From Endomicrobium sp. (GTDB lineage: Bacteria; Elusimicrobiota; Endomicrobiia; Endomicrobiales; Endomicrobiaceae), in contig JAITKZ010000056.1 of the NCBI GenBank assembly GCA_031278115.1, positions 1 to 14,287 on the forward strand: DNA of 14,287 bases, read 5' to 3'. Below are positions 1-14,287 of the stretch, piece by piece. How positions within the stretch are numbered: the first letter of the stretch is position 1; each line of letters begins with the position of its first letter. The position numbers and the translations under genes were made by a program. The notes beneath the pieces were generated by a model that was given only the letters and a program-made list of their open reading frames with translations, searched no databases and had not been told where the DNA came from.

Positions 1-2
1 TT

Positions 3-1103
3 GAGTTCATCATTAACATTTGTTATTGACTCATATGCCTGTATAATATGTTTGTTACCTTTAGTTGATATTATAGTTTTTTCTCTAAAATCATGTTCGT
101 CCCAAACATCTCCAACAATCTCCTCTAATAAATCCTCTATTGAAGCAAGACCTATTGTGCACCCAAACTCGTCAACTACCACAACAATATGATACCGTCC
201 TGTTTTAAACTCTTTAAGAACTTTACTGATTTTTGCATTTTCAGGAACAAAATATGCTGGACGAATTAAATCTTCAATAATTATAATATCGGAATTCCGC
301 CAAGCGACAGCTAAATCTTTTGTATATATTATCCCTATGACATTGCTGATATCTTTGCTGTATACGGGAACTCTTGAATACTTTGTGTTAATAATCTTTT
401 TAATCATCTCATCTTTGGATAGATCTATGCCCACGGCAAAAATATCGGAAACAGGTACCATCACTTGAGAGACTTTCATATTTTTGAAATCCATTATATT
501 GCTTACAAGTTTCCTGGACTCCTCCGAAAGAGGGGAAGTGTTTTTATCTGACAACAAAAAATCTATTTCGTCGGCTTTGATATGCCTACTTTCCTTACGT
601 CTTAAAAATAGCTTCATTATTTTGTTTGAAATCGTTAATAAAAAATTAATTAGTATTCTAAAAAATGAGGCAAGTTTTATTATCGTAGGCAAAATAAAAA
701 TACCCCATTTTTCAGAGTTGTATCTTGCTATGGTCTTAGGGAAAATACTTCCTATTGTTAAAGCCAAAACTATTGATAGAATCGGAAAAGAAAAATGCAG
801 AATATTAATATTGATTTTGTAATACTCGGAAATATCCAAAGCGAGAGATGATAAAATAATACTCATTCCTACAACAGACAAATTCATTCCTATAATCATA
901 GTCGTTATAACTTCTTGAGAATGGTTTTCCCAAAAAGCCACTATCTTTGAATATTTTATTTCGTTTGCCTTTGCTCTTATCCAAAAGGTACCTGACAAAC
1001 TTGTAATAGCAGTTTCGGAACCACTGAAAAAACTAAGTAGTAGTAATAGAAAACAAAAAATGATGATTTTAAATACTATTAAAATATCATGATTCGTAAT
1101 CAT
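3..1103 (-). CDS. CNNM/CorC-type membrane protein with CBS pair, partial (3' end outside window)
   Basis: The reading frame is open from an ATG at 1103 to the left edge of the window (367 codons, no stop), so the C-terminus is missing. The first 20 or so residues form a hydrophobic helix followed by SFFSGSETAITSLS, the usual start of the CNNM (DUF21) transmembrane domain. Further hydrophobic segments follow to about residue 120, with the family-type 'FPKTIARYNSE' motif near the domain end. A CBS pair comes next (MVPVSDI, then RVPVYSKDISNVIGIIYTKD, then VVVDEFGCTIGLASIEDLLE). 'EEIVGDVWDEHD' leads into what should be a CorC_HlyC domain. Family members are linked to divalent cation (Mg/Co) export or homeostasis, but the transported ion cannot be read from sequence. 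The start overlaps the upstream paralogue's last 17 bp, implying translational coupling. No better start lies downstream before the first helix. Confidence 0.88.
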   Translation of the reverse strand, partial: MITNHDILIVFKIIIFCFLLLLLSFFSGSETAITSLSGTFWIRAKANEIKYSKIVAFWENHSQEVITTMIIGMNLSVVGMSIILSSLALDISEYYKININILHFSFPILSIVLALTIGSIFPKTIARYNSEKWGIFILPTIIKLASFFRILINFLLTISNKIMKLFLRRKESRHIKADEIDFLLSDKNTSPLSEESRKLVSNIMDFKNMKVSQVMVPVSDIFAVGIDLSKDEMIKKIINTKYSRVPVYSKDISNVIGIIYTKDLAVAWRNSDIIIIEDLIRPAYFVPENAKISKVLKEFKTGRYHIVVVVDEFGCTIGLASIEDLLEEIVGDVWDEHDFREKTIISTKGNKHIIQAYESITNVNDEL

Positions 1104-2097
1104 ACTCATCAAGAATTTCACCGACAACTTCTTCTAATATGTCTTCAAGCGTAACCATACCTATTATATTTTCGTTTTTATCCTTTACAAAAGCCATATG
1201 GGTTTTGCCACTCTGAAATTTTTTCAAAAGTTCGTTTATTTTTTGGTCTTCGCTTATGTAATATGGCTCTTTAACAAGTGACCGTATAAAATGTCCTTTA
1301 TTTTCCTGCCACAATGTCAAAATATCTTTTATATGGATATATCCGATAATATTATCTTTTGATTTAAGGTAAACGGGGATTCTACTTCTTGATATTTCAA
1401 CAGCCATATCCAAAAATTCTTCATCTTCCAAAGACAAATCTACGGAATCTATATTTTCAAATGGAACCATTATTTTTTTCACTAACAATTCACCAAAACT
1501 CAAAACTCTTTCTAGCATAATCCCAGTTTCTTTGTCTATTTCTCCGCTATATCCGCCCTCATAAATAAGAGCTTTAATTTCTTCTTCACTCAAAATATAA
1601 GAACTTCTACCACCAACCTCTGAAGTTTTCGGAGACAAAAATTCCGCAAATTTAATAATCGGATAAGTGAATGGTTTCAATATTTTTTCTATCTTGGAAA
1701 GTATAGGTATAGATATTACAGTAATTTTCTCAGAATTTTCTCTCGCATAAAATTTAGGTACAAGTTCCCCAAATATTAAGATAACTGAAGATGTTATAAG
1801 CCATGCGATAATATCAATAATATTTCTATTGATCCCAGAAAATAAAGTTGTCATAAAATATGCGGACACAAAACTTGTAAGAATGTCGGAAATAACATTT
1901 AACGTTAGGATAATTGTAAGAAGATAATAAGGCTGTTCAAGCCATGACAGCAACATCTTAGAAAGTTTAGGGGTTTTGCCAATAAGTTTTTTTATTCTGT
2001 ACTTAGATAAACTTGTAATACCTATCTCAGCCGCAGATACCCAAGCTGATGTAATTAAAAGGAAAACTAAAGCAACTAGACTTGCGAAAATAAACAT
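1087..2097 (-). CDS. CNNM/CorC-type membrane protein with CBS pair, no CorC_HlyC domain
   Basis: This 336-residue integral membrane protein is a paralogue of the next gene downstream. Residues 1-120 form the CNNM transmembrane domain: an N-terminal helix, 'SAAEIGITSLSKYR' near 21-34, further helices near 58-85 and 93-112, then the conserved 'ELVPKFYARENSE' at 111-123. Residues ~205-325 are a CBS pair (MVPFENI, RIPVYLKSKDNIIGYIHIKD, GMVTLEDILEEVVGE). The protein ends about ten residues after the second CBS motif (EILDEYDYES), so it lacks the C-terminal CorC_HlyC domain. It therefore looks like a short family form with an intact frame. A cation-homeostasis role is inferred from the family only. 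The gene overlaps ybeY by 22 bp upstream and its paralogue by 17 bp downstream, so all three are probably one transcript. In many bacteria a CorC-like gene sits near ybeY, which supports the assignment. Confidence 0.9.
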   Translation of the reverse strand: MFIFASLVALVFLLITSAWVSAAEIGITSLSKYRIKKLIGKTPKLSKMLLSWLEQPYYLLTIILTLNVISDILTSFVSAYFMTTLFSGINRNIIDIIAWLITSSVILIFGELVPKFYARENSEKITVISIPILSKIEKILKPFTYPIIKFAEFLSPKTSEVGGRSSYILSEEEIKALIYEGGYSGEIDKETGIMLERVLSFGELLVKKIMVPFENIDSVDLSLEDEEFLDMAVEISRSRIPVYLKSKDNIIGYIHIKDILTLWQENKGHFIRSLVKEPYYISEDQKINELLKKFQSGKTHMAFVKDKNENIIGMVTLEDILEEVVGEILDEYDYES

Positions 2098-2510
2098 TGA
2101 AATATTTTATCCTGTTTGGCAAACATTTTGGATTTATTTTCAACATCATAATCAGTATACCCGCAAAGATGAAGTATCCCGTGTATAACAAGATATGCCA
2201 ATTCTTGCTGCCAAGAGTTGCCGTATCTTTTCGCCTGTTTTTGAGTACAATTTTTTGATATATAAATATCTCCTGCAAAAATTTCAGGAATAATTAAAAA
2301 AGATATAATGTCTGTTATACGTCTTACTTTTCTGTATTTTATATTCAGTTTTTTTATCTCTTCATTACTTAACATTATAAAATTTATTTGATACTTTCTC
2401 TTTTTTTCAGACTTTAAGGCAAGATTTGCGGCTTCTTTTAAAATATTGACATGTTCTTTAGGAAAGTCAACAAAGTTTATAAAATTTTTATTTGTATTCA
2501 ATTCTTGCAT
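2076..2510 (-). CDS. ybeY: Endoribonuclease YbeY (rRNA maturation factor)
   Basis: YbeY is a small metal-dependent cytoplasmic protein for 16S rRNA 3'-end processing and ribosome quality control. At 144 residues the length fits the family (about 140-170). Recognisable landmarks in order are 'ITDIISF' at 65-71 (family TDVLSF), 'GDIYIS' at 80-85 (family GDIxIS), and the metal-site segment 'HGILHLCGYTDYD' from His110. In the usual HxxxHxxGxDH signature three histidines bind zinc. Here His110 and His114 are present, but the third position (120) is Asp. I recall similar Asp variants in Bacteroidetes YbeY, so this need not mean loss of function. The start overlaps the upstream HD phosphodiesterase gene by 23 bp. 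This PgpH-YbeY order is common in bacteria and supports both calls. No strong Shine-Dalgarno precedes the ATG; coupling to upstream translation is likely. Confidence 0.93.
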   Translation of the reverse strand: MQELNTNKNFINFVDFPKEHVNILKEAANLALKSEKKRKYQINFIMLSNEEIKKLNIKYRKVRRITDIISFLIIPEIFAGDIYISKNCTQKQAKRYGNSWQQELAYLVIHGILHLCGYTDYDVENKSKMFAKQDKIFQCLFSQV

Positions 2511-3945
2511 GATATATACCCATAATAGTTGAAATAATACTGTCTCTCATTAACTCTAAATCTTTTAATGTTATTGGACACACTGAAAACTGACCGTCTA
2601 TAAACTTATTATTGATTATTTTTTCAACCATGTCTTTTATTCTCGCTGTAGTAGGCTCTTCTATACTGCGACACGCAGCCTCGCAAGAATCTGCTAACAT
2701 TATTACTGCACCGATTTTTGTGCTCGGTTTTGGTCCTGGATATCTGAAATGTTCCATATCCATATGGAATCCGGATTCCAAAGCTCTATGATAAAAAGCA
2801 TGCATAACTGTTGTGCCATGATGCTGTTTTATAATATTGATTATTTCATTATCAACATTATGCTTCTTCGCGAGAACAACACCTTCTTTAACATGCGAAA
2901 TTAAAATAAGCCGTGACATTTCAGGGTTTAAATTATCGTGAGGATTATAGCCTGATGTTTGATTTTCTATAAAATATGCAGGATTTTTAAGTTTGCCTAT
3001 ATCGTGGTAATATGACACTACTCGCGCCAAAAGGGAATTTTCTCCAACAATGTTTGCCGCCTGCTCTGCGATATCTGCAGTCATAATTGAGTGATGATAA
3101 GTGCCGGGAGCTTCAAGCATAAGACGTTTAAGTAGAGAATTATTAAAATCCGAAAGTTCAATCAATTTTATATTTGTGGTTCTTGAAAAAATCTTTTCAA
3201 ACAAAGGCATTAAAACTAACAAAATTATCACCGAAAAGATTCCGTTTAAAACTCCATAAAAAAGATTGTATTCCAATTGAAAACTGCTATAGACACCTAT
3301 AAGATAAAACATCGTAAGCAAAGTGGAGTTAGCAATAATAGTTTTGGCGCCGACATTTATAAAATCAGATCTTCTGCGTATTGTATGCACATTTGCAATA
3401 ACAAATATCGCACTGCCGAGCATTGTAAGAAAAATGTCAAAGCGTACGTCGTTTAAAAATGCCACGTACAAACTTAGACATATAGCATACACTCCACCTA
3501 ATCTTGACGATAGTAGCATTGCCGCCATAATTGAAAACGCAGAAACTGGAGAAGCAAAAGGCGACAAATATTCTTTTGAAATCTGAAAAGTTAAAATAGC
3601 AGTTATAAAGAGCAAACACATTAAAACAACAGCGTCATTATCTTCCAAAATGGCTCTTTCTTTGTTTTGAATTTGAGACGCAAAGAAAATAACAACTGCA
3701 ACCACAAATATTAAAGCTGCAAACATTATTTTTGAGTCTATGCCCACGCCCATTACAAGCATGCCATAAACCACTATTATCGTAAATAGAAAGGAAATAA
3801 AAACCGGGATTTTTATTTCCTTTTGAAATAAATTTTTTGATTCCCTTATAACGGGACCTTTTGATTCAACAGGCTTGAGATCTTTGGCAAGTTTCAAGAG
3901 AAAACCTCTTGTCCAAGACCTTATTTTGTTAAATAAATTATTCAT
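2488..3945 (-). CDS. PgpH-like membrane HD-domain phosphohydrolase (probable c-di-AMP phosphodiesterase), short form
   Basis: This 485-residue protein has a cytosolic N-terminal stretch (about 1-45) and then some seven or eight hydrophobic segments between residues 46 and 250. The C-terminal HD domain (about 265-480) carries the expected ligands: His285 (TYHHSI), His314-Asp315 (YYHDIGK), His351, His375-His376 (KQHHG) and Asp419 (LADS). The arrangement matches the PgpH/YqfF family, whose characterised members hydrolyse cyclic di-AMP to pApA. Those proteins are around 700 residues and have an extracellular domain before the transmembrane block. That domain is absent here, so the substrate is inferred rather than shown. 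A Shine-Dalgarno-like AGAGGGAT lies just upstream of the ATG. The gene starts 29 bp after aspS and overlaps ybeY by 23 bp. All metal ligands are present, so it should be active. Confidence 0.87.
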   Translation of the reverse strand: MNNLFNKIRSWTRGFLLKLAKDLKPVESKGPVIRESKNLFQKEIKIPVFISFLFTIIVVYGMLVMGVGIDSKIMFAALIFVVAVVIFFASQIQNKERAILEDNDAVVLMCLLFITAILTFQISKEYLSPFASPVSAFSIMAAMLLSSRLGGVYAICLSLYVAFLNDVRFDIFLTMLGSAIFVIANVHTIRRRSDFINVGAKTIIANSTLLTMFYLIGVYSSFQLEYNLFYGVLNGIFSVIILLVLMPLFEKIFSRTTNIKLIELSDFNNSLLKRLMLEAPGTYHHSIMTADIAEQAANIVGENSLLARVVSYYHDIGKLKNPAYFIENQTSGYNPHDNLNPEMSRLILISHVKEGVVLAKKHNVDNEIINIIKQHHGTTVMHAFYHRALESGFHMDMEHFRYPGPKPSTKIGAVIMLADSCEAACRSIEEPTTARIKDMVEKIINNKFIDGQFSVCPITLKDLELMRDSIISTIMGIYHARIEYK

Positions 3946-3974
3946 CTATCCCTCTGGGTCGTTGGCAAACAAGT

Positions 3975-5741
3975 CTAAACCTTTGCTTGCTTAACAACAA
4001 TCCGTACACCCAATTCTTTAAGCTGTTTTTCACTTACCGGAGTGGGAGCATTAGAAAGAGGATCCGACGCTTTTTGCGTTTTAGGAAATGCTATCACTTC
4101 TCTTATGGAGTCTTCCCCTGCCATTAATGCGCACATTCTGTCAAAACCCAAAGCTAAACCACCATGAGGAGGAGCGGCGTAAGTCAATGCATCAAGCAAA
4201 AAGCCAAACTTTTCTTTTGCAGATTCATCTGAAATATTTAGAATATCAAAAATCTTCTTTTGAACATCTCTTCTATGTATTCTTATAGAACCTCCGCCAA
4301 GCTCAACACCGTTCAAAATAACATCGTAAGCTTTCGCTTTTGCAGTTCCAGCATTTTCTTTATTCAATGAAACTACATCTTGAGGTGAAGTAAATGGGTG
4401 GTGCAATGCCTGCCATCTCTGTTCTTCTTTATCCCATTCCATAAGAGGAAAATCCACAATCCACAAAAAATTAAACTTGGACTTGTCTATAAGTCTAAGA
4501 TCTTTGCCCATTTTAAGCCTTAGTGCTCCAATCCCCTGAGCAACAATTTTCTCTTCATCTGCAAGAAAAACAATTAAATCACCCGATTTGGCTCCAAGTT
4601 TAGATATAATTATTTTTATCTCTTCATCTTTAAAATATTTAACTATATTGGACTCAGCACCAGATTCCGTAATTTTCATCCATGCTAAACCCTTAGCCCC
4701 ATATTCGCCGACAAAATTTGTAAGTCCGTCAATCTCCGAACGGGAAAAAGACGCAGCTTTAGGAATACATAATCCTCTCACTATACCGCCCTTAGATATA
4801 ACAGATGAAAACACACTAAACCCACACTCTTTAAGTTCAGTTGAAAAATCTCTTATTTCCATTTCAAATCTTGTATCGGGTTTATCGGAACCATAACGAA
4901 GTACAGCATCTGCATAAGGCATTCTTTCAAAAGGTATTTTTATTTCAATATTTAATACATTTTTGAACACTCTTGAAAGCATTCTTTCAATAACGTCCAT
5001 TACGTCGTTCTCTTCAACAAAAGACATCTCAAGGTCTATTTGGGTAAATTCAAGCTGCCTGTCAGCACGCAAGTCTTCATCTCTAAAACATCTTGCTATC
5101 TGATAATATTTATCAAAGCCTGAAACCATCAAAATCTGTTTAAAAAGCTGAGGAGATTGCGGCAATGCAAAGAAACTTCCGTGGTGCAACCTTGAAGGTA
5201 CTAGAAAATCTCTTGCACCTTCAGGCGTGGATTTAGTTAAGAAAGGCGTTTCTATTTCTAAAAAGCCATCATCATTTAAAAAATTCCGCACTTCATTTGA
5301 AACTTTATGACGCATTATAAAGTTTTTCTGAAAATTAGGACGGCGTAAGTCTAAATATCTGTACTTCAACCTCAATTCCTCCGAAGTTTCCCTATAATCC
5401 GATATTTCAAAAGGAAGTCCAGGACATGTATTTAAAATCTCAATTTTAGACACTACAAGTTCAATGGAACCTGTAGACATATTAGGGTTTAACGTTCCTC
5501 CTGGTCTTTTTCTTACTACCCCTTTAACAGATATTACATATTCGCTTCTTAACCCTTCAGCTATTTTAAATACTTCCTTATTTTCAGGTTGGAAGACAAT
5601 TTGCAACAACCCTTCTCTGTCTCGTAAATCAATAAAAATCACTCCGCCGTGATCTCTGCGAGAATGTACCCAACCACAAACGATAATATCTTTGCCAATA
5701 CTGTCTTCTCTAACATCTCCGCAATAACTACTTCTCTTCAT
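3975..5741 (-). CDS. aspS: Aspartyl-tRNA synthetase, probably non-discriminating (Asp/Asn)
   Basis: AspRS charges tRNA-Asp with aspartate in the cytoplasm. The 588-residue length is normal for the bacterial type, which has an inserted GAD domain. The order is an N-terminal OB-fold anticodon-binding domain (about 1-105), class II catalytic core segments from about 140, motif 2 'FRDED' at 219-223 with 'FTQIDLEMSF' after it, the GAD insertion (about 280-410), 'GGGSIRIH', and motif 3 'GLALGFDR' at 528-535. In the OB-fold, 'RRDHGG' places His at residue 31. That matches the Pseudomonas-type non-discriminating enzymes, whereas E. coli-type discriminating enzymes have Leu. This suggests it also makes Asp-tRNA-Asn for a GatCAB amidotransferase; that is inference. 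AGAGG lies about 8 nt before the ATG. The Nudix gene lies 99 bp upstream and the HD gene begins 29 bp downstream. Confidence 0.97.
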   Translation of the reverse strand: MKRSSYCGDVREDSIGKDIIVCGWVHSRRDHGGVIFIDLRDREGLLQIVFQPENKEVFKIAEGLRSEYVISVKGVVRKRPGGTLNPNMSTGSIELVVSKIEILNTCPGLPFEISDYRETSEELRLKYRYLDLRRPNFQKNFIMRHKVSNEVRNFLNDDGFLEIETPFLTKSTPEGARDFLVPSRLHHGSFFALPQSPQLFKQILMVSGFDKYYQIARCFRDEDLRADRQLEFTQIDLEMSFVEENDVMDVIERMLSRVFKNVLNIEIKIPFERMPYADAVLRYGSDKPDTRFEMEIRDFSTELKECGFSVFSSVISKGGIVRGLCIPKAASFSRSEIDGLTNFVGEYGAKGLAWMKITESGAESNIVKYFKDEEIKIIISKLGAKSGDLIVFLADEEKIVAQGIGALRLKMGKDLRLIDKSKFNFLWIVDFPLMEWDKEEQRWQALHHPFTSPQDVVSLNKENAGTAKAKAYDVILNGVELGGGSIRIHRRDVQKKIFDILNISDESAKEKFGFLLDALTYAAPPHGGLALGFDRMCALMAGEDSIREVIAFPKTQKASDPLSNAPTPVSEKQLKELGVRIVVKQAKV

Positions 5742-5805
5742 AGTAAAAGCCTCTTTTAAAACATCTTAACCTAACAGTGCACTTATGGAACAACTTTAAT
5801 ACAAA

Positions 5806-5811
5806 ATTATA
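5806..5811 (-). promoter_or_regulatory. Possible -10 element for aspS
   Basis: The minus strand reads TATAAT, a perfect sigma70 -10 hexamer, about 65 nt upstream of the aspS ATG in the Nudix-aspS gap. The corresponding -35 region (around CTAAAA) is a poor match, and such hexamers are frequent in AT-rich DNA, so this is only a candidate. Confidence 0.3.
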
Positions 5812-5840
5812 GAACTATATCTACCACTTTTTAGAGGAAA

Positions 5841-6380
5841 TTATTTTGATAAACTAGCAAAATACAGCAATGATATAATGGTTTTTGAATCTTTTATATG
5901 TCCACTTTTTACCATATCTAAAGCAGTTTTAAAGTCTACTATTTCTTTGTCAACAAACTCATCTTCATCAGGGCTAAGGCTGCCTTCTTCAAGATCAAAA
6001 GCCGAGAAAATATGTAATAGCTCGTTTGAAAGTGCTAAAGTAGGGTAGAAAGACAATAAAAGTTCAAACTTTTTGGCTATGTATCCTGTTTCTTCTTGCA
6101 ATTCTCTTGTTATACATTCAAGAGGAGTTTCTCCGACATCAATTTTACCTGCCGGAATCTCATAAGTTACTTTACCTATAGCATATCTATATTGTTTAAC
6201 TAAAACTATATTTTCTTTATCAATAAAGGGAAGAACTGCTGCTGCTCCATGGTGATTTATATATTCCCTTGTGGCAGAGTTGCCGTTTGGAAGTTGTACT
6301 TCATCGCAAAAAAGCTCTGTAAATTTTCCTTTGTATATCAATTTCTTATTCAAAGTCTTTTCAATAAAATCTTTACTCAT
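5841..6380 (-). CDS. Nudix hydrolase, ADP-ribose pyrophosphatase-like
   Basis: This 179-residue cytoplasmic hydrolase has a perfect Nudix box. Gly78, Glu84, Arg92-Glu93, Glu96-Glu97 and Gly99 satisfy GX5EX7REXXEEXG, the Mg-binding catalytic loop. The region before it ('REYINHHGAAAVLPF' at 38-52, 'VKQYRYAIGKVTYEIPAG' at 61-78) is typical of the NudF/YqkG group that cleaves ADP-ribose to AMP and ribose-5-phosphate. The length is slightly below the E. coli enzyme. Substrate preference within Nudix proteins cannot be fixed from sequence alone. The ATG at 6380 is preceded by only a weak AGGG at short spacing and by a very AT-rich 69-bp leader in which TATAAA and TAAAAT could act as -10 elements. 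No well-spaced -35 was found. aspS follows after 99 bp, so the two could be transcribed together or separately. Confidence 0.9.
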   Translation of the reverse strand: MSKDFIEKTLNKKLIYKGKFTELFCDEVQLPNGNSATREYINHHGAAAVLPFIDKENIVLVKQYRYAIGKVTYEIPAGKIDVGETPLECITRELQEETGYIAKKFELLLSFYPTLALSNELLHIFSAFDLEEGSLSPDEDEFVDKEIVDFKTALDMVKSGHIKDSKTIISLLYFASLSK

Positions 6381-6449
6381 AGCCCTATTTTATCATTTTT
6401 TATACCAAAACAAAAAATAATTACGTGGTGCAGGAGTATAGGATAATAA

Positions 6450-6712
6450 TTAGTTTATATTCTCAATCCTCGGTCTTGGAGCAGCTGGAACGAGAGTCTT
6501 TTTTGAACGATTTGGAATGCTTGTTGAGAAGTAAATATAATAATCATTATATTCTTGATATTCTTGAAAATAATCATACTCATTAAAATATTTAATATCT
6601 GCAATATCTTCTACAGTATCAGTACTTCTGATTATATCTTGATCTTTTGCCATTGCTGGAAACAAAAATACAAATATAAAAAACAAGAAATATAGAGTCT
6701 CAAATTATTCAT
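6450..6712 (-). pseudogene. Small putative secreted protein, signal peptide frameshifted
   Basis: I do not recognise the family. The open frame gives a 78-residue product only if a TTG at 6686 is used, and that start falls inside the hydrophobic core of a signal peptide (…FIFVFLFPAMA-KDQD). An ATG at 6710-6712 reads MNNLRLYISCF in another frame and then reaches a T6 run at 6678-6683. If that run had seven T's, the two frames would join into a textbook signal peptide: a short basic n-region, a hydrophobic core and an AMA cleavage site, giving about 87 residues. The mature part is Asp/Glu/Tyr-rich in its first half (DYFQEYQEYNDYYIY) and ends in a short basic, Pro-containing tail (PNRSKKTLVPAAPRPR), with no cysteine. 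Either the gene is broken, the base is a sequencing error, or slippage on the T run restores it. It lies 35 bp after the pckG remnant and could share its transcript. Confidence 0.6.
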
Positions 6713-6747
6713 AACAATATCTATTTTAATCACTTTGTTGTAAATTT

Positions 6748-7350
6748 TTACATTCCTAGTTTTTCTTTAAGTTCTTTTAGACAGTCCCTTAAATCTTTAG
6801 GAATTTTATCACCAAATTTGTTATAAAATTCCTCTATCATTACAATCTCCTTCTTCCAGTCTTCTTTATCTACACTAAGAAGTTTGTCAATAATTTCTTT
6901 TTTATGCTCAAACCGTTTAAATCCATTGCGCCTTCTTGAGGAAATAACCCTACCTCAGACTCTCTTGCGCCGGTTTTTCCTTCAATTCTATCTATCATCC
7001 ATTTTATAACTCTGGAATTTTCTCTATACCCAGGCCACATAAACTTACCAACGTCATCTTTTCTGAACCAGTTAACCATAAATATTTTAGGAAGTTTTTT
7101 TGCTTTCTTGCCAATATTTAACCAATGTTGAAAATAATCGCCCATATTATATCCACAAAAAGGAAGCATAGCCATAGGATCTCTCCTGACTGTTCCAACT
7201 TGACCGCTTGCAGCAGTGGTAGTTTCAGAACCTATTATTGATGCAGTAAACACCCCACTATTCCAATTGAGACCCGTCCATAATATAAACTTCGTCAGGA
7301 CAAAAAAGCTCCTGCATTTCTTTTACGAATATATCCATTGGCGACGGCAT
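6748..7350 (-). pseudogene. pckG: PEP carboxykinase (GTP) remnant: internal deletion plus frameshift
   Basis: GTP-dependent PEPCK interconverts oxaloacetate and PEP and is about 600 residues long. Here only the two ends remain. The start has a good ribosome site (AAGGAG) and an ATG at 7350, giving MPSPMDIFVKEMQELF…YIMDGS, which matches the protein's N-terminus. The frame closes at TAG (7258-7260). Overlapping this in another frame, from about 7268, the gene resumes at the family's NWNSGVF region and continues with 'GSETTTAASGQVG', 'RRDPMAMLPFCGYNMGDY', 'PKIFMVNWFRKDD' and 'GKFMWPGY', all diagnostic C-terminal segments. Roughly 380 residues holding the oxaloacetate/PEP, metal and nucleotide sites up to that point are missing. 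Near the end an A6 run (6898-6903 on the plus strand as T6) lacks one base; restoring it continues the frame as EIIDKLLSVDKEDW… to TAA at 6748. The gene cannot make active enzyme. Confidence 0.93.
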
Positions 7351-7477
7351 TTTATCGCTCCTTATTGAAACTTAGGATCTTATTTTGCGCAGACAACATG
7401 TTAACAAGAGACACCGCAAGACAAAATTTATCCATCTTGGCGATATTTCATCTTAAATTGCTAGAATCTAAAAGAGA

Positions 7478-7990
7478 CTAAGCCCAAACTTCTTTTGCTT
7501 CTTTCCCTAAAACAACTTTCTTAGCTGGATATATAGGTTTAACTATTTCCTCAGGTTTAAACCACAATTTAATTTCTCTTTCAGCTTCAGAAGTATCTGA
7601 AGAACAGTGGACAACATTTTCATATACACCTTTTGTTGTTATTCTTCCGTAAGCTCCTCGTATTGATACAGGATCGGCTTCTTCAGGATTTGTTGCTCCA
7701 GCGATTTTTCTCATTCTGGCGATAGCATCTTCGCCTTGATATACAAAAGCCAAAACTCTATCCCAAGGCTCACCATAAACTTTGCCCTGTATATAGTCAA
7801 CTAATTCTCCAAAAAAAGGCTTGTCTTTAAGCTGATAATAATGTTGCTCAGCCAGTTCTTTACTCACCTTAACGGCTTTTGCACCTATTATAAGCATTCT
7901 AGCTTCAGAGAGTTTAGTTAGAATATTTCCTGTTAAAGATTTTTTTACTCCGTCTGGTTTAATTAAAATTAAAAGCCCTTCAATTGCCAT
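7478..7990 (-). CDS. ndk: Nucleoside diphosphate kinase
   Basis: Ndk transfers the gamma-phosphate from ATP to (d)NDPs through a phosphohistidine, supplying NTPs and dNTPs. The 170-residue protein has 'LILIKPDGVKK' near residues 7-17, 'KDKPFFGELVDYI' at 55-67, 'GATNPEEADPVSIRGAYG' at 98-115 and the active-site segment 'ENVVHCSSDTSEAEREI' with catalytic His128. It is about 25 residues longer than the common 140-150-residue enzymes because of a C-terminal extension (WFKPEEIVKPIYPAKK…). The active-site neighbours differ from the common HGSD: the fourth position is Ser rather than Asp. I recall other long-form bacterial Ndk proteins with similar wording. The gene is the last of psd-pssA-ndk, 9 bp after pssA. 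It supplies NTPs, including CTP that feeds CDP-diacylglycerol synthesis, a plausible but unproven link with its neighbours. Confidence 0.95.
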   Translation of the reverse strand: MAIEGLLILIKPDGVKKSLTGNILTKLSEARMLIIGAKAVKVSKELAEQHYYQLKDKPFFGELVDYIQGKVYGEPWDRVLAFVYQGEDAIARMRKIAGATNPEEADPVSIRGAYGRITTKGVYENVVHCSSDTSEAEREIKLWFKPEEIVKPIYPAKKVVLGKEAKEVWA

Positions 7991-7999
7991 ATCCTGCTC

Positions 8000-8773
8000 C
8001 TATATTCTTTTTTTATAAGCGTTGTAATATTTTACTCCAATGCCAATCAATCCTGAGAAAACGTATAAACTAAACAATATAAAAATTATATTTTGTGGGA
8101 ATGTAATCATTAAAAATAAAAGTAGTACAACTAAAACCAAAAGTCTGAAAGTTTTAGGTTTGGATAAACTCATCTTTTTGAAAGAATAATAAGGTATGCT
8201 TGAAACCATTAGCAAAGACAAAATCACCATTACAACAGGCATTGTCTTAAAGAAAAGTGGCATGCTTTTCATTAAAATCGGAATTGTTTTAAAAGACAAA
8301 GACTGACCAGGATCTGCAAAAAGTTCGTAGCTTAAAACAAAAGACAATAACAGTCCTGCAGATGCAGGCGTGGGAAGTCCCATAAAAGAACTATGCACCA
8401 CACCTGCTTGAGCATGAACGTTAAATTTTGCAAGTCTTAATGCGCTACATAAAACAAACAGTATAGCTATAGCTATACCAACTTTTCCCATTGAGCTTAA
8501 AACAAGTTGATACATCATAACAGAGGGAGCAAGCCCGAATGAAACTAAATCGCTTAAAGAATCTAGCTGAATACCAAACTCGCTTGTTGTTTTTGTAAGT
8601 CTCGCAACTCTTCCATCAGTCATATCAAATGCTACTGCAAGTATAAGAAACCATGCTGATTTTGTAAAATCGCCGTCTATAGACGACAATATTGACAAAT
8701 AACCACAACTCATATTTCCGCATGTTAAAAGACTCGGCAGTATGTAGATGCCCTTCTTCATTTTTTCGCTCAC
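8000..8773 (-). CDS. pssA: CDP-diacylglycerol-serine O-phosphatidyltransferase
   Basis: This integral membrane enzyme makes phosphatidylserine from CDP-diacylglycerol and L-serine. The CDP-alcohol phosphotransferase signature is complete. Counting from the TTG at 8779, Asp52-xx-Asp55-Gly56-xx-Ala59-Arg60-x8-Gly69-x3-Asp73-x3-Asp77 supplies the metal and CDP contacts. Hydrophobic segments near 40-52, 80-113, 139-150, 180-194 and 213-246 fit a multi-helix membrane protein. An in-frame TTG at 8779 would give 259 residues and overlap the psd stop by 4 bp, but the ribosome site AAGGAAG directly abuts it. The GTG at 8773 has about 6 nt spacing from that site, so I prefer it (257 residues, 2 bp after psd). 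Downstream of psd and upstream of ndk, it forms the phosphatidylethanolamine branch with Psd, which decarboxylates its product. Confidence 0.93.
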   Translation of the reverse strand: MSEKMKKGIYILPSLLTCGNMSCGYLSILSSIDGDFTKSAWFLILAVAFDMTDGRVARLTKTTSEFGIQLDSLSDLVSFGLAPSVMMYQLVLSSMGKVGIAIAILFVLCSALRLAKFNVHAQAGVVHSSFMGLPTPASAGLLLSFVLSYELFADPGQSLSFKTIPILMKSMPLFFKTMPVVMVILSLLMVSSIPYYSFKKMSLSKPKTFRLLVLVVLLLFLMITFPQNIIFILFSLYVFSGLIGIGVKYYNAYKKRI

Positions 8774-8775
8774 TG

Positions 8776-9402
8776 TCAACTTCCTTTATTTATGCTTGCA
8801 AAAATAGTTACACCTGACACAACTTTATTACCCTTCTTTACTTTAACTTCAACATTTTTGGGCATATGAAGGTCAACCTGAGAACCAAATTTTATTACGC
8901 CAATTTTATCGCCTACTTTCAAAATATCTCCAGGCTTTACCCAAGAAATGCATCGCCTTGCAAGAATGCCAGCTATCTGTTTAACCAAATATTTCCCGTT
9001 TTCATTTTCTATTGTTATTGCATTTTGTTCATTTACTATATGAGCCTCAGGCTCCATAGCTTTCAGAAACTTGCCGGGTTTATATTCAACACTTAAAACT
9101 TTACCGGCAATAGGAGATCTTTGAAGATGAACATCTAATACAGATAAGAATACTCTGACAACTTTTTCTTTTTCATTTTCGCCTACTTCTAAAACAGTGC
9201 CATTGCACGGGGAAAGGATAAGATTTGCCCCTAGAGTTATCTTTATCTTTGGATCTCTAAAGAAGTAGAGGCAAAATAAAGAATCTAAAATACACAAAAC
9301 ACCTGCTAGAGATGCAAATTTACCGAAACCAGAAACAACCAACACTATTCCTAAAATGAGAGGAATTAAAATAAATGGATAACCTTCTTTCACAACTTGC
9401 AT
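8776..9402 (-). CDS. psd: Phosphatidylserine decarboxylase proenzyme (short type)
   Basis: Psd converts phosphatidylserine to phosphatidylethanolamine at the membrane. It is a pyruvoyl enzyme made by self-cleavage. The 208-residue length matches the short class, not the longer E. coli class. Two hydrophobic segments lie at about 8-48, followed by 'FFRDP' at 47-51, 'SPCNGTV' at 64-70, 'LSVLDVHLQRSPIAG' at 86-100 with conserved Asp90 and His92, and the processing site 'KFGSQVDLHMP'. Cleavage is expected between Gly173 and Ser174, with Ser174 becoming the pyruvoyl group. This FGS site replaces the LGST of the longer class and is normal for the short one. The ATG at 9402 is preceded by AAAAGGAA at good spacing. 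The gene lies about 35 nt downstream of a near-consensus promoter and just before pssA, so product-forming and substrate-forming steps are co-expressed. Confidence 0.94.
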   Translation of the reverse strand: MQVVKEGYPFILIPLILGIVLVVSGFGKFASLAGVLCILDSLFCLYFFRDPKIKITLGANLILSPCNGTVLEVGENEKEKVVRVFLSVLDVHLQRSPIAGKVLSVEYKPGKFLKAMEPEAHIVNEQNAITIENENGKYLVKQIAGILARRCISWVKPGDILKVGDKIGVIKFGSQVDLHMPKNVEVKVKKGNKVVSGVTIFASINKGS

Positions 9403-9443
9403 TATTATTCCTTTTAAGCATAAAATCTTTCAAATTTGCTTGG

Positions 9444-9472
9444 ATTCTACTAAATACACCAAATTATGTCAA
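9444..9472 (-). promoter_or_regulatory. Sigma70-type promoter of psd-pssA-ndk
   Basis: The minus strand has TTGACA (plus coordinates 9467-9472), exactly 17 nt of spacer, then TAGAAT (9444-9449). This is a perfect -35 with a five-of-six -10. Transcription would start near 9437, leaving a leader of about 35 nt before the psd ATG. It sits in the 108-bp gap after prfB. Confidence 0.8.
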
Positions 9473-9510
9473 AACCTTAAACACAAAAACCTATTGAAAA
9501 ATGAATAATA

Positions 9511-10600
9511 TTATTTATTCCTACTTCCCAATTTCCAAGAGAGGTACGCACCAATGAAAGTGTCTATTTCGCCGTCCATTACAGCGCTGGCTTGCGAGGT
9601 TTCATAACCTGTTCTGTGGTCTTTGACAAGCTGATAAGGCATAAAGACATATGAACGTATTTGGCTGCCCCATTCTATAGAGCCTTTTTCATTATAATGT
9701 TTTTCATAAGAAGCTCTCTGTTTTTCTTGTTCAAGTTCGTAAAGCTTAGCTTTTAAGAGTTTCATAGCTGTTGCCCTATTTTTTATTTGCGAGCGATCGT
9801 TTTGCGATTGAGCTATTATTCCTGTAGGCAAGTGGGTTATTCTTACGGCAGAGTCCGTTTTATTTATATGCTGTCCACCTGCTCCTGAGGATCTGTATGT
9901 GTCTATTCTTATATCTTTATCTTCAATTATTATGTCTATATTATCTTCAATTTCAGGGATAACATCAACAGAACTGAAAGAGGTATGTCTTCTCTTATTT
10001 GAGTCAAACGGAGAAATTCTTACAAGTCTGTGGACTCCTATTTCAGACTGTAAAAAACCATGAGCATATTCACCCTTTATTATCATGGTGATGCTTTTGA
10101 TTCCCGCTTCATCACCATCTAAACTATCCACTACTTCAATCTCAAAACCTTTGTCTTCAGCCCATCTTGAATACATTCTTACAAGCATTTGCGCCCAATC
10201 GCAAGATTCAGTACCACCTGCTCCTGCATGTATAGACATTATGGCATTGTTCCTATCATGCTCACCACCCAGCTTTGTTTTTGTTTCAAAAGAAGATAGA
10301 ACTTTCTCTAATTTCCTACTTTCATCTTCTACCTCTTTTAATGCAGTGTCGTCATTTTCAGACTCAGCAAGACTTTTTAAGTCAATTAAATCTTTAACCT
10401 GCAAGTACATATCCTGCCATAAATTGTACAAAGTCTTTAAATCGTCAAGCTCAGACATTACTCTTTTTGCATTGTCCTGATCATTCCAGAAGTTTGGATC
10501 TGATATTTCTTTTTCAAGCTCTTTGATTCTGTTCAGTTTTGAATCTAAATCAAAGAGACCTCCTCAAAGCTTCTATTCTTTCTTTTTGCTGTTGAAGCAT
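9511..10600 (-). CDS. prfB: Peptide chain release factor 2, made by programmed +1 frameshift
   Basis: RF2 ends translation at UGA and UAA. The first frame starts at ATG 10600 (AAGAGG about 7 nt upstream), encodes 16 residues ending RRSL, and hits TGA at 10550-10552. The ribosome must slip +1 on CTT so that the next codon is GAT (10549-10551). The second frame then runs to TAA at 9511, giving about 362 residues, the usual RF2 size. Diagnostic features in full-length numbering are the RF2-type anticodon mimic Ser-Pro-Phe near 196-198 (RISPFDSNKRRHTSF) and the peptidyl-hydrolysis motif Gly-Gly-Gln near 241-243 (SGAGGQHINKTDSAVR). RF2 limits its own synthesis: when it is scarce, the UGA is read slowly and frameshifting rises. 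The gene lies 46 bp after lnt. Without the frameshift only an N-terminally truncated 315-residue frame would be noticed. Confidence 0.96.
10550..10564 (-). promoter_or_regulatory. RF2 programmed frameshift site
   Basis: The minus strand reads AGGAGG (10559-10564), three bases (TCT), the slippery codon CTT (10553-10555) and the in-frame stop TGA (10550-10552). This is the same layout as the known prfB recoding site: an internal Shine-Dalgarno 3 nt before CTT, directly followed by TGA. The base after TGA is T rather than the common C. The site couples RF2 synthesis to RF2 supply. Confidence 0.95.
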
Positions 10601-10646
10601 TTTAGAACCTCTTCATATTTATACACTTATGCAATCAAGTAAAATC

Positions 10647-12173
10647 TTAATTTATTAATCGTCTTTTGAAACGTAAAAATACTGCCAATACTAATAGGGC
10701 AACGCTACAGATCTCTACAAAAACATCATCGTATTTAGTATAGAAAGTTTTAAAATCGTTTTGAAAAAACGTCCCATTGAGCAGTTCTTTTTTTGACACT
10801 TTAGTTTTATCAATAATTATTCCTGAAGGTTCAATAATACCGGAAATGCCAGAATTTGCCGAAACTAAAATAAATTTTCTATTTTCAACAGCTCTAAATA
10901 CATTCATCATAAAATGCTGATATGGAGCTGCCGTATCAAAAAACCATGCGTCGTTTGTATGGTTTGTAAGAGTTTTCGCTCCGTTTAGAACAAACCTTCT
11001 TGCTATATCTGGAAAGAAATTTTCAGAACATATAGTAGCGCCAATAAACAGCTCGCCGTTGTTAAAGACATTTGCATCGCTACCCTCCTTAACGTCTCCC
11101 ATTTTATTTAAAATACCAAAAAATCTTGCAAGAAACCTTCTAAAGGGAATAAACTCGCCAAAAGGCACTAAATGGTTTTTCTTATGGACAACATTATAAT
11201 TATCTGCGCCCTTAAAACCTAAAACAACATTAAATATTTTTTCATCGTCTTCGTTGTAAAATGAGCCGAATATGTTAAAACCTCCGGCACAGATCGCTAA
11301 TTCTTTTGCAAAACTATACAAACTGCCATCTTCTGGAACTATGCCGGGCAAGACAGTTTCTGACCATAAAACTAAGTCTGCTTTAGATTTGCTAACTTCA
11401 AGAGCTTGTTTTTTAAGATTGGATAAAATCTCTTGTCTATAATCTTCATCCCATTTTTTATACTGGTCAATGTTTGTCTGCAATATTGAAACTTTATATT
11501 CTTTATCGCCAAGCAATCTGAATTTATATATTTTATATGTTCCAAATAATGTAAACAAAATTATAAAAGCTAAAGCCATATACAAATAGTTCTTCTTATT
11601 TTTACCAATAATATAAAAATAAAAGCATATGTTGCAAAACAGTATTAAGAAAGAAATTCCATATACTCCAGTAAATTCCGCTATTTGTATAATTTCAGTA
11701 AATTCAAATTGCGAGTAGCCTGTCAACATCCATGGAAACCCGGTAAAAAGATATGTTCTTATATATTCAAGCAAAACCCAAAGACAGGACCCAAAAATAA
11801 CTACAAAGAAATCTGAGAGTTTATTCTTTTTTTGAAAAGAAATATATTTTTGTAACCCAAAACTCCAAATACCCCAATAAAGTGCAAGATATATCCAAAG
11901 AGAGCAGGCAGCTATTACCGCCTGAATATACGAACCTGTATTAAAATGCAACATCGGAACAAGCCAATAAAGTCCAATTGCGTTAAATACAAATCCTGAC
12001 AAGAACCCGCACAGAAAAGAACTAATAGCATTTGTTCTCATTATTACAAAGACAAGTGGAACAAACGCTATCCACATTAGGAAAAACAAATTGAATTTGG
12101 GGAAGGCACATACAGACAATAGCCCAGAAGTCAAACATAATACAGTATTCTTGCTATTTAAATCTATTTTCAT
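10647..12173 (-). CDS. lnt: Apolipoprotein N-acyltransferase
   Basis: Lnt adds the third acyl chain to the N-terminal cysteine of lipoproteins in the inner membrane, implying a diderm cell. The 508-residue protein has hydrophobic helices in about 8-215 and a nitrilase-like catalytic domain from about 225 to 475, then a final helix near 485-500 with a basic tail. The catalytic triad is visible: Glu272 in 'LWSETVLPG', Lys332 in 'VHKKNHLVPFGEF' and Cys382 in 'ATICSENFFPD'. Further conserved parts are 'GFPWMLTGYSQ' at 145-155 and 'NHTNDAWF' at 404-411. The ATG overlaps the stop of the upstream kinase gene (ATGA, 4 bp), suggesting coupled translation. prfB starts 46 bp after its stop. All key residues are present and the length is normal. 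Confidence 0.96.
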   Translation of the reverse strand: MKIDLNSKNTVLCLTSGLLSVCAFPKFNLFFLMWIAFVPLVFVIMRTNAISSFLCGFLSGFVFNAIGLYWLVPMLHFNTGSYIQAVIAACSLWIYLALYWGIWSFGLQKYISFQKKNKLSDFFVVIFGSCLWVLLEYIRTYLFTGFPWMLTGYSQFEFTEIIQIAEFTGVYGISFLILFCNICFYFYIIGKNKKNYLYMALAFIILFTLFGTYKIYKFRLLGDKEYKVSILQTNIDQYKKWDEDYRQEILSNLKKQALEVSKSKADLVLWSETVLPGIVPEDGSLYSFAKELAICAGGFNIFGSFYNEDDEKIFNVVLGFKGADNYNVVHKKNHLVPFGEFIPFRRFLARFFGILNKMGDVKEGSDANVFNNGELFIGATICSENFFPDIARRFVLNGAKTLTNHTNDAWFFDTAAPYQHFMMNVFRAVENRKFILVSANSGISGIIEPSGIIIDKTKVSKKELLNGTFFQNDFKTFYTKYDDVFVEICSVALLVLAVFLRFKRRLIN

Positions 12174-14035
12174 ACTCTAACAAAAGGAATTTCTTGCAGC
12201 AAATTTTTATGAAATATTTTAAGATACTCACTTTTTCTACTAAAATCTTTTATCTCTCCCAAATACATGTTGGTTACCAGCACATGCCTTTCTTTCATCC
12301 CTGCTTCCTCTATTATATCTATTCCGTTTATATCTTCTTTCAATTCATAATCTGCTATTAAAAGTACTTTCTCTTTATTTTTCAATGACTTTAGATAGTT
12401 TAATGCTTCTTTCCCTTGCTTAAAAAACTTTAATCTTATCTCTTTTTCGTACTCCTTCAACTTCTCTTTCCATACTTCATGCACTAACTCTTCATCATCT
12501 ACTATTACTACCTCATATCCCTTCTTTATCTCTATCTTATCTGCAAACCATCTTGGTTTCTCTGCTTTTGGAAATGTTAGTATAATTTCTGTACCAACAT
12601 TTTCTTTAGACTCTATCCTCATTTGCCCTTTAATCGCTTTTAACACACTTTGCACTTGCTCCATCCCTAACCCATGACCGCTCTTCTTTTTACTTGTTTC
12701 TACTTTCTCTCCTTTCATCAACTTCTCTGCAATCTCTTTTGGCATTCCTTGCCCATTATCCTTCCCCCTTATTTCTACTTCTTCTCCTTTTACTTTGTAT
12801 CCAACGCTTATTTCTCCTTTCTTTTTCTCTATTGCTTCTACTCCATTATTTAGTAAGTTTAATAGCATTCTGCTAAAATCAACAAAATTCCCTTTTATAA
12901 ATACAAACTTATCTTCGCTATTAAACATACTTTTTATTTCTATTTCCTTATTTTGCTCTCTTATTTGATTAATAATACGTTCTAAACACAATTTTACTTG
13001 TGTATAATCACTTTCATCTCTATCTTTTGTACCTCTATACTTTTGAAGTAACCTGTCTACTATATTTTCTATACTTCTCGCCACTTCCTCAAATATTCTC
13101 TTTTCTTCTTCAGATAAACTTTTATTCAAATTTAAGTATCCTTTTAACGCTGTTACTGGTTGCGCTAAATCATGTGATACCCATCTTGCTGTATTATATA
13201 GTTCCTTTTTAACTTCTAACTCTTTTTTTAACTCCTCTTTTTTCTTCCTATCTGTAATATCTACTGAAATACCCAATAATCCGACATTTTTACCAGCACT
13301 ATTTGTTAAAGGAAGTTTATGTGACATACAAATTCTAAATCCATTATACATTGAAGCTTTCTCTTCGCCTTTATATACTTTACATTTCTCAATAACTAGT
13401 TTATTTATATTATTATGTTTTTTTGCCTCTCTCTCCGGTAACAAATCCAAAATAGTTTTACCCAAAATCTCATTCGTAGAACTTAATCCTAAATCTTTTG
13501 CCTGAACATCATTACACCCCATATATATGTACTTGTTATTCAACCAATATATGTGTCCCGGCATTTTAGCTATTATGTTAGTTAAGAGTTCCTTTTGCGA
13601 ACGTTCATCAAGTAGAAGCTTTAGCAAAGCTTCTCTTGACAGATTTTCTTTTTTTGACATGTTCGCAATCACATTTATCAAATCTTCGTCATCAATGAAA
13701 TAGCCATAATTACGTTTATTTTCATACTCAGATTTAAAATCAGCTAAATTTGCAAATTTTTGCATTGAAAAATACGGAAATAGTAATCTTACAGAGTCCC
13801 TCAAATATCCAAAGACAGACCATAATATTGTGGTTGATTCTGTAACATTTCCAACATGAATAACATATATATGTTTGTTTGGATATAGATATGGAAGGGA
13901 TAAAATCCATGCGTTTTCTTCAACAAGGTACGAAAATCCGTTTTTTTCATTTGTTCTACGCTTAATTGCATATGCTTGGACACTTTGTTCGTAAGCCTTA
14001 TGAATAGAGTTGTCTTCTTCTATAGCTTTCATCAA
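12170..14035 (-). CDS. Hybrid sensor kinase: CDPS-like C-terminal half, PAS, histidine kinase, receiver
   Basis: The 621-residue frame begins at TTG 14035 (or ATG 14032), with no good ribosome site, because an in-frame TAG lies 51 bp upstream. Residues 1-90 look like the C-terminal half of a tRNA-dependent cyclodipeptide synthase: 'KAIEEDNSIHKAYEQSV' helix, 'FSYLVEE' and 'YVIHVGN'. A PAS domain follows (about 153-262, PGHIYW…GCND…LLGISVDITDRK), then a charged coiled coil. The dimerisation helix has phospho-acceptor His288 (WVSHDLAQP) and the ATPase shows Asn397, DNGQG (426-430) and SGHGLGM (452-458). The receiver (about 505-615) has Asp513-Asp514, phospho-acceptor Asp562, Thr588 and Lys610. 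Kinase and receiver residues are intact. No membrane segment is seen, so it is probably cytosolic. It overlaps lnt by 4 bp. The coding strand of the kinase core is unusually purine-rich. Whether this half is translated is unclear. Confidence 0.85.
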   Translation of the reverse strand: MMKAIEEDNSIHKAYEQSVQAYAIKRRTNEKNGFSYLVEENAWILSLPYLYPNKHIYVIHVGNVTESTTILWSVFGYLRDSVRLLFPYFSMQKFANLADFKSEYENKRNYGYFIDDEDLINVIANMSKKENLSREALLKLLLDERSQKELLTNIIAKMPGHIYWLNNKYIYMGCNDVQAKDLGLSSTNEILGKTILDLLPEREAKKHNNINKLVIEKCKVYKGEEKASMYNGFRICMSHKLPLTNSAGKNVGLLGISVDITDRKKKEELKKELEVKKELYNTARWVSHDLAQPVTALKGYLNLNKSLSEEEKRIFEEVARSIENIVDRLLQKYRGTKDRDESDYTQVKLCLERIINQIREQNKEIEIKSMFNSEDKFVFIKGNFVDFSRMLLNLLNNGVEAIEKKKGEISVGYKVKGEEVEIRGKDNGQGMPKEIAEKLMKGEKVETSKKKSGHGLGMEQVQSVLKAIKGQMRIESKENVGTEIILTFPKAEKPRWFADKIEIKKGYEVVIVDDEELVHEVWKEKLKEYEKEIRLKFFKQGKEALNYLKSLKNKEKVLLIADYELKEDINGIDIIEEAGMKERHVLVTNMYLGEIKDFSRKSEYLKIFHKNLLQEIPFVRV

Positions 14036-14086
14036 AAGGTCTCTACAAGATTCAAAGTGAGGATTTTTTAATTTACTTACGCACTC

Positions 14087-14287
14087 CTACCAATTTACTT
14101 GTGTAAATTTCTCTAAATTTGGCTTACATCGTTTAATCCACGAAACTTGCTCTTCTTCACCTTTAACTATAGCCTCTTCAAGTTCTTCTATTTTAGAATT
14201 TTCCTTTGGTTTTGGTAAATAATTATACCGACTTAAGTATCCTGTACGTACTTCATAACCTTCACAAGTCGCTAAATCAAATTTTTT
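14087..14287 (-). pseudogene. Upstream part of the same sensor gene: CDPS-like N-terminal segment ending at TAG (partial)
   Basis: The minus-strand frame is open from the right window edge for 66 codons and stops at TAG (14087-14089). It is the same frame as the kinase gene, with 18 further sense codons between the TAG and the TTG at 14035. Landmarks are 'GYLSRYNYLPKP', 'GEEEQVSWIKRCKPNLEKF' and 'VNW' just before the stop, followed past the stop by 'ECVSKLKNPHFESCRDLL'. These follow the order of the middle of cyclodipeptide synthases as I remember it: LQRYN-type helix, GxxWIxRN-type helix, then RWDDW-type strand before the next helices. The simplest reading is one gene split by a nonsense change near the second residue of that WxxW-like strand. 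The N-terminal Rossmann-fold part with the nucleophilic Ser lies outside the window. Calling the family CDPS rests on motif memory, not on a search. Confidence 0.6.

Follow-up and report, generated by a model that had tools for sequence, protein, structure and literature searches.

A cyclodipeptide synthase-like input domain joined to a hybrid histidine kinase in Endomicrobium

We examined a 14,287-bp stretch of DNA from Endomicrobium sp. (contig JAITKZ010000056.1 of assembly GCA_031278115.1, positions 1 to 14,287; hereafter the window), at one end of which lies a gene that joins a domain resembling a cyclodipeptide synthase (CDPS) to a sensor kinase. CDPSs make small ring-shaped dipeptides from charged tRNAs. 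The gene occupies a single 706-codon frame on the minus strand (14287-12170), interrupted only by a TAG at codon 67 (14087..14089) and closed by a TGA, which bears out an earlier note, made from the sequence alone, that had read the frame through the TAG. Approximately the last four fifths of the CDPS-like front end fall within the window (13664..14287, minus strand), as identified from alignments A1 and A3, from a structure model of a relative (L006), and from the matching of that model to CDPSs. About 49 N-terminal residues, including the position of the catalytic Ser, lie beyond the edge of the window and of the contig. The domain has the fold of a CDPS, it is fused to a kinase, and its family keeps the Ser, Tyr and Glu of the CDPS active site with His in the place of Tyr202 (numbering of the CDPS AlbC).

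The front end is followed, all on the minus strand, by PAS, kinase, ATPase and receiver domains in the order that the note had given. The PAS domain (PAS_4, 13244..13552; 28.7 bits against a Pfam cut-off of 23.1) and the HATPase_c catalytic domain (12563..12880; 62.3 bits against 26.4), whose N and G box motifs are located at 12847 and 12760, both pass their thresholds. The HisKA-like dimerisation and phosphotransfer helices (13058..13180; 22.1 of 26.9 bits) and the receiver domain (Response_reg, 12206..12511; 23.3 of 30.2 bits) score below theirs, but the key residues are conserved. Specifically, in alignment A6 the phospho-acceptor His of HisKA (13174-13172) is His in 24 of 25 rows, and among the 20 rows that have a residue at the receiver positions (5 rows are gapped) the phosphoacceptor Asp (12352-12350) is Asp in 18 and the Lys (12208-12206) is Lys in all 20. 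The predicted structure of a relative, P0005, shows long helices at the HisKA-like region and, at its C-terminus, strands alternating with helices in the place of the receiver. With the HisKA His, the N and G boxes of the ATPase, and the receiver Asp and Lys, the protein has what defines a hybrid histidine kinase. Judged by eye, it is probably cytoplasmic.

A protein search with residues 1-225 returned 19 proteins at E <= 1 among 1,073 candidates, the window itself included, and the best relative, at E 7.1e-110, is far from chance. Twelve of the 18 other proteins are 757-802 residues long and consist of an N-terminal module of about 255 residues followed by PAS, HisKA, HATPase and a receiver-like end; the remaining proteins are shorter, and one of them, P0017 (676 residues), stops after the ATPase. 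All 18 have a sense codon at the place of the TAG. Because these relatives carry the residues on both sides of it within one frame, the 66 codons before the TAG are part of the same protein, which excludes the case, named in advance as refuting, that they belong to a different one. A genome scan for this divergent module gave 34 loci, in records labelled Holosporaceae, Holosporales, Alphaproteobacteria, Endomicrobium or Endomicrobiellum; going by the record names, most appear to come from termite guts, and one is from roe-deer rumen. Two of the divergent fusions, at L012:2380-5094 (904 codons) and L020:5872-8679 (935 codons), exceed the usual length of about 800 codons, the extra sequence being at the C-terminus.

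It is quite possible, at odds that we place slightly short of even, that the gene in the window is a pseudogene relic. This concerns the present copy only, is compatible with any mechanism for the family, and stands beside the odds of the mechanisms discussed below, not among them. The in-frame TAG points to a relic, as do the many further stop-bearing relics in Endomicrobiales genomes and the close relative L004 (95% DNA identity to the window over the first 1,021 bases, with the end of secA upstream by eye), whose frame is also broken, into 388 and 322 codons. On the other hand, the ratio of nonsynonymous to synonymous substitution rates (dN/dS) in the module comes to about 0.23 in the comparison with L004 and 0.12-0.13 in that with L003, the 620 codons downstream of the TAG are open, intact relatives exist elsewhere, and the TAG may be a sequencing or assembly error.

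The window front end (its first 225 residues) matched no Pfam or NCBIfam model of note. Of the two checks that had been suggested for a CDPS identity, the Pfam profile failed and the structural comparison succeeded. PF16715 gave no match for the window at E <= 1, nor at E <= 5 among the matches listed (25 of 45 families), and at E <= 10 in 23 genomes it gave 17 places, none of them at a module site; likewise, neither phmmer with the window piece nor a 13-row profile found a CDPS at E <= 10 among the sequences of the Protein Data Bank (PDB). The complete front-end domain of L006 was modelled with a predicted local distance difference test (pLDDT) score of 92.7, and both Foldseek and VIA-align matched the model to CDPSs, which gives it the predicted CDPS variant of the Rossmann fold.

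Profile comparisons with small alignments showed no link in sequence (A2 against six Endomicrobium CDPSs, 0.2%; A2 against A7, a further CDPS-derived front end described below, 3.3%; A7 against A4, 0.1%). A link emerged only when 34 module rows were set against a profile of Nbra-CDPS (9I5M), Rgry-CDPS (5MLP) and five A7 rows, the first two being CDPSs of the XYP type. The module rows scored at best 21.2, in the median 14.4 and at lowest 2.0 bits with this profile, and 21 of the 34 were above the best of 2,040 shuffled sequences (11.1 bits). In the controls, reversed sequences reached up to 3.4 bits and kinase ends up to 6.9, and the canonical CDPSs of these bacteria scored 1.4-13.7 bits. With hhalign, the module against the same profile gave 93.8%, and 30 column shuffles gave at most 2.4%. 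The profile alignment places YLVEE of the module over YLLEE of Nbra-CDPS and YVIHV over FVIYP, and therefore puts His at the place of Tyr202 (Tyr194 in Nbra-CDPS). We conclude that the input domain probably descends from an XYP-type CDPS. The claim of a CDPS-like domain fused to a kinase is supported by the structure, by the XYP profile link with its controls, and by the true CDPS-kinase fusions and gene pairs described below.

Ser37, Tyr178, Glu182 and Tyr202 carry the mechanism shared by CDPSs (PMC13062777). The catalytic Ser, which for the window copy could be sought only upstream, beyond the edge, is Ser in 34 of 34 aligned relatives. The Tyr of YLVEE (13928..13930, minus strand; equivalent to AlbC Tyr178 and Nbra Tyr172) and its second Glu (13916..13918, minus strand; Glu182) are each kept in all 34 rows of alignment A3. 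The place of Tyr202 (13856..13858, minus strand) is His in 34 of 34 rows, followed in the window by Val instead of Pro. In the translation of the 621-residue piece downstream of the TAG these residues are Tyr36, Glu40, His60 and Val61, exactly where the earlier note had put them, and its reading of the Tyr202 position as changed to His holds for the whole family.

In simulations, Tyr202 is the proton relay for ring closure, and it is described as strictly (PMC5935735) or 'almost strictly' (PMC7566563) conserved in active CDPSs. Its uniform replacement speaks against an active synthase with a built-in response, in which the front end would make a cyclodipeptide using His for Tyr202 and the PAS-kinase would report it. 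We consider this reading unlikely, although the Ser, Tyr and Glu are invariant and a 2026 model-based review doubts the role of Tyr202 in the last attack (PMC12945691), so that loss of this residue need not stop the reaction.

Docking of tRNA offers a second line of evidence. NYH CDPSs are thought to dock tRNA through a basic helix alpha4 (PMC4159871), and XYP CDPSs to dock the acceptor stem through basic strands beta2 and beta7 (PMC7566563, PMC13062777). Neither surface is basic in the module. The mean charge of alpha4 is -3.0 over 34 rows, which range from -5 to 0, whereas 11 canonical CDPSs average +5.45 (range 4 to 7). The mean net charges of beta2 and beta7, mapped approximately by a simple residue offset, are +0.47 and +0.76. 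Of six places at which Nbra-CDPS has a basic contact on these strands (K12, R224, K226-K229), none keeps a basic residue across the module; the most that any of them shows is an R in 12 of 34 rows. These charges count against the active synthase as well. Because neither known docking surface is basic, they also weaken the proposal of a charged-tRNA sensor, in which the Ser would be acylated by aminoacyl-tRNA, the ring would not be closed, and the acyl-enzyme would report amino-acid supply to the kinase. Such a sensor would account for an enzyme apparently halted midway, with the acylating and anchoring Ser, Tyr and Glu kept and the ring-closing Tyr replaced. The anchoring Tyr, however, is Phe in 5 of 5 rows of the A7 type, and we regard this explanation, too, as improbable. 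We retain both readings, which the earlier note had offered as alternatives, because the Ser, Tyr and Glu are invariant.

True CDPSs are joined to the same type of kinase. We counted as a strong CDPS any match to PF16715 of 100 bits or more and found 11 such places; at 10 of them the CDPS is fused to, or followed by, a PAS or PAS-kinase gene, and the 11th (G045) is cut by the contig end inside the CDPS. At six places (G005, G006, G015, G023, G027 and G118) a separate PAS-kinase gene directly follows; at G007 the next gene has two PAS repeats, and the contig stops short of any kinase; and at G018 the CDPS and the downstream PAS-kinase are both broken. Pfam was run on three of the kinases beside canonical CDPSs. 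The kinase at L109:4158-6056 has three PAS repeats and the others two or one, the number varying among near relatives. In-frame fusions, which the note had suggested searching for, do exist: G111 encodes a 747-codon CDPS fusion with PAS, kinase and a receiver-like end, and a second fusion (G017) is truncated by the contig end within the PAS. When a database was searched for long proteins that begin with a canonical CDPS, there were four matches among 595 candidates, of which the fourth has no CDPS. The other three, P0020, P0021 and P0022, are 97%, 54% and 50% identical to the G111 fusion, carry CDPS, PAS and HATPase among their stored Pfam domains, and bear no functional name. Even sampling across the phylum of G111 showed the family in 1 of 398, namely the centre itself.

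When 11 canonical CDPSs were aligned, GISPFN, Tyr and Glu were present in 11 of 11. The 202 place is Tyr in 10, which thus have all four catalytic residues, and Cys in P0022, and the 203 place is Lys in all. Since the same kinase type is joined to canonical CDPSs, by fusion or as a gene pair, coupling of synthase and kinase exists, which is a further point for the active synthase; a self-made signal with a built-in response nevertheless fits these canonical genes better than the altered domain of the window.

The split Endomicrobium kinases, which carry PAS repeats alone before the kinase, are relevant to another explanation: that the synthase fold has a structural role only, as a dimerisation or partner-docking head, with the PAS domain as the true sensor. 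Nbra-CDPS forms a dimer (PMC13062777), and dimers are also the working form of kinases. A mere scaffold would hardly account for the invariant active-site residues, for several Trp and Cys that are also invariant, or for the stronger conservation of the module than of the kinase, seen in 87 of 91 pairs, and we think this role very unlikely.

A small gene links the canonical and divergent kinds. It encodes a SemiSWEET-like PQ-loop protein of about 95 residues, with PF04193 above its cut-off in 5 of 5 tested, and it adjoins 5 of the 11 canonical CDPS places. It also lies directly upstream of 3 of the 34 divergent fusions (L001, L021 and L027), with a partial copy at L029, a count that includes several loci with little upstream sequence. 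The genes are located at L109:3833-4153, L110:7992-8309, L113:5085-5372, L114:4670-4951, L036:1149-1493, L001:5650-5919, L021:5620-5922 and L027:5680-5949. True CDPSs are thus linked to the same kinase type as the module, and both to a PQ-loop gene; that it occurs next to canonical and divergent forms alike speaks for the two being parts of a single system. Sugars or cystine are transported by members of the PQ-loop family (PMC4309421, PMC9385667).

The A7 front end is a third, XYP-like, CDPS-derived domain, found on PAS-kinase-receiver-like proteins of Holosporaceae-type symbionts (L125:592-1317, L136, L138, L137 and L128). Its five-row profile matched Rgry-CDPS (3.4e-7), Fdum-CDPS (5OCD; 1.4e-5) and Nbra-CDPS (0.01) in the PDB. 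A7 keeps the Ser, the Glu and the Tyr-Pro and has Phe for Tyr178 in 5 of 5 rows. In other words, the module and A7 each lack a different catalytic Tyr, the trace expected from repeated conversion of an enzyme to a sensor. At L016:4759-4872, the frame upstream of the module opens with a stretch (KCVKWSKEGQEFL) that by eye looks like the beginning of an A7 front end, which suggests recombination between front-end types.

In the alphaproteobacterial order of G002, the A7 front end is present in 24 of 49 genomes, the module in 9 and a CDPS in 2. Of 35 A7 places in this order, 27 lie in open frames of at least 500 codons, and a HATPase was found in 5 of the 5 scanned. In class samples, 1 of 385 had the module and 0 of 385 had A7, although an empty answer of this latter search shows nothing. 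Among 83 genomes of Endomicrobiales (the order of G005), the module is present in 16 and a CDPS in 12, with 10 carrying both. In viral contigs, 56 pattern matches yielded none that was confirmed. A tree of 47 kinase cores intermixes divergent fusions, canonical fusions, split, A7-type and other kinases, with 14 of its 44 inner branches poorly supported. One clade (100/99) unites six divergent with five split Endomicrobium kinases, and the G118 split kinase groups with divergent fusions (98/91). Front ends therefore appear, from sequence comparison, to swap among kinases. Gene exchange between Endomicrobiellum and alphaproteobacterial symbionts of flagellates is known for other genes (PMC11257099); the words 'cyclodipeptide' and 'histidine kinase' do not occur in the main text of that paper.

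The surroundings of the window gene, whose names were assigned by eye and recall, match those of Candidatus Endomicrobiellum porotermitis (L117): the order kinase, lnt, prfB, psd, pssA, ndk, nudix, aspS is the same, and aspS, prfB and lnt are 92.7%, 90% and 79% identical. The window probably comes from an Endomicrobiellum-like symbiont. Directly downstream of the kinase, with a 4-base overlap, lies what we take to be lnt (apolipoprotein N-acyltransferase; 10647..12173, minus strand). The kinase itself (12170-14035) is 63% identical to that of L117, against 79-93% for the measured neighbours, which would mean either that it has evolved fast or that a paralogue has replaced it. The interval from secA to lnt contains a divergent fusion and then a CDPS relic in L117, and relics of a CDPS and of a kinase in L118; in the 14 kb of the window we saw no separate CDPS. 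Elsewhere in the window we observed, amid broken surroundings, a remnant of a gene for GTP-dependent phosphoenolpyruvate (PEP) carboxykinase (6873-7253; PEPCK_GTP, 1.3e-51) and, by eye, two tandem CorC/hemolysin-C-like membrane proteins (3-2097). In L118, by eye, ndk is followed by a 553-codon open frame that runs off the locus and is probably an intact PEP carboxykinase gene.

The reading we favour, with a probability of about 0.5, is a hybrid histidine kinase that has a retired synthase as its sensor; what was once an enzyme seems now to detect a signal, in bacteria thought to live inside gut protists. The front end would no longer make and release a cyclodipeptide, and its former substrate pocket would bind a small ligand, most likely a cyclodipeptide or an amino-acid compound. 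A CDPS of the same symbiont, or of a neighbouring one, could produce this ligand, and the PQ-loop protein could transport it. Binding would be signalled through the PAS domain and a signalling helix, leading to autophosphorylation of HisKA and phosphotransfer to the receiver.

Several points weigh against this reading, among them the doubt already mentioned about the need for Tyr202. Invariance of the Ser, Tyr and Glu is what one would predict for an enzyme, or for an intermediate that is acylated; a simple ligand pocket would not call for it. The tRNA-docking argument rests on charge counts, which do not replace a binding test, and the place of Nbra K44 is K or R in 31 of 34 module rows. With the XYP profile, 13 of the 34 rows do no better than the best shuffle. 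No genome among the 49 of G002's order has both module and CDPS, and therefore a CDPS-made ligand would there have to come from elsewhere; G017, outside this set, has both. Finally, the co-occurrence in Endomicrobiales (Fisher p 1.9e-7) ignores kinship and counts relics.

A bolder reading, which we consider unlikely, is that the stalled synthase is a covalent receptor and that it belongs to a wider guild. An aminoacyl or dipeptide group would be kept on the Ser, its release lost with the ring-closing Tyr, and the acylated state would drive the kinase; the CDPS-kinase fusions may make and sense their own cyclodipeptide and, with A7, form a guild signalling by tRNA-derived dipeptides. If true, this guild would operate in intracellular symbionts of gut protists and span both Elusimicrobiota and Alphaproteobacteria.

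The proposal that cyclodipeptides act as bacterial signals is of long standing, but no dedicated receptor coupled to a CDPS is known to us. We found no publication that describes a histidine kinase with a CDPS or CDPS-like domain in searches that could not reach most subscription papers and bioRxiv preprints, so that the earlier note's statement that no such system had been described held within this range. A 2018 survey already lists PAS domains among CDPS gene neighbours, with a suggestion of quorum sensing (PMC5767969). The parts, then, were known, and the wiring and the degenerate input domains are new: the linkage of CDPS to PAS or kinase at 10 of 11 places, the PQ-loop association, and the A7 front in 24 of 49 genomes. 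True CDPSs are tied to sensor kinases, and two further CDPS-derived domains occupy the input position of kinases; an enzyme of the class I aminoacyl-tRNA-synthetase fold appears to have been turned into a signalling input. Kinase sensing of a CDPS product becomes directly testable with one polypeptide, and the findings point to a chemical conversation among unrelated bacteria within the same protist cells.

Among known systems, the XYP CDPSs (Nbra, Fdum and Rgry) share with the module the whole-domain fold, the Ser, Tyr and Glu, and the alignment of YLVEE on YLLEE and of YLSRYNYL on DTLQRHNL. The module differs from them in His-Val for Tyr-Pro, in strands beta2 and beta7 that are not basic, in the lack of a Pfam CDPS match, and in its fusion to PAS, histidine kinase and receiver. 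The NYH-like CDPSs of related bacteria, for which the closest solved structure is the cyclo(Leu-Leu) synthase of S. haemolyticus (6EZ3), have the same broad fold and stand beside or fused to the same kinase type, but unlike the module they carry Tyr at place 202 in 10 of 11 and Lys at place 203 in 11 of 11, and their alpha4 is basic. CDPSs fused to methyltransferase, P450 or transporter domains have been described (PMC5816076) and likewise place a CDPS domain within a larger protein; their partners serve tailoring or transport, whereas here the partner is a signalling kinase. Hybrid PAS histidine kinases share the PAS, HisKA, HATPase and receiver domains, but not the synthase-derived input domain, which matches no Pfam, NCBIfam or PADLOC model (PADLOC, run on three proteins, found none). 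CqsA and CqsS form a synthase-sensor-kinase pair in quorum sensing; of the two, CqsA is named in PMC13220807. The canonical CDPS cassettes resemble this pair in having the gene for a small-molecule synthase beside that for a sensor kinase, and the canonical and divergent systems differ from it in that the synthase is tRNA-dependent, fusions occur, and a divergent copy of the synthase serves as input domain.

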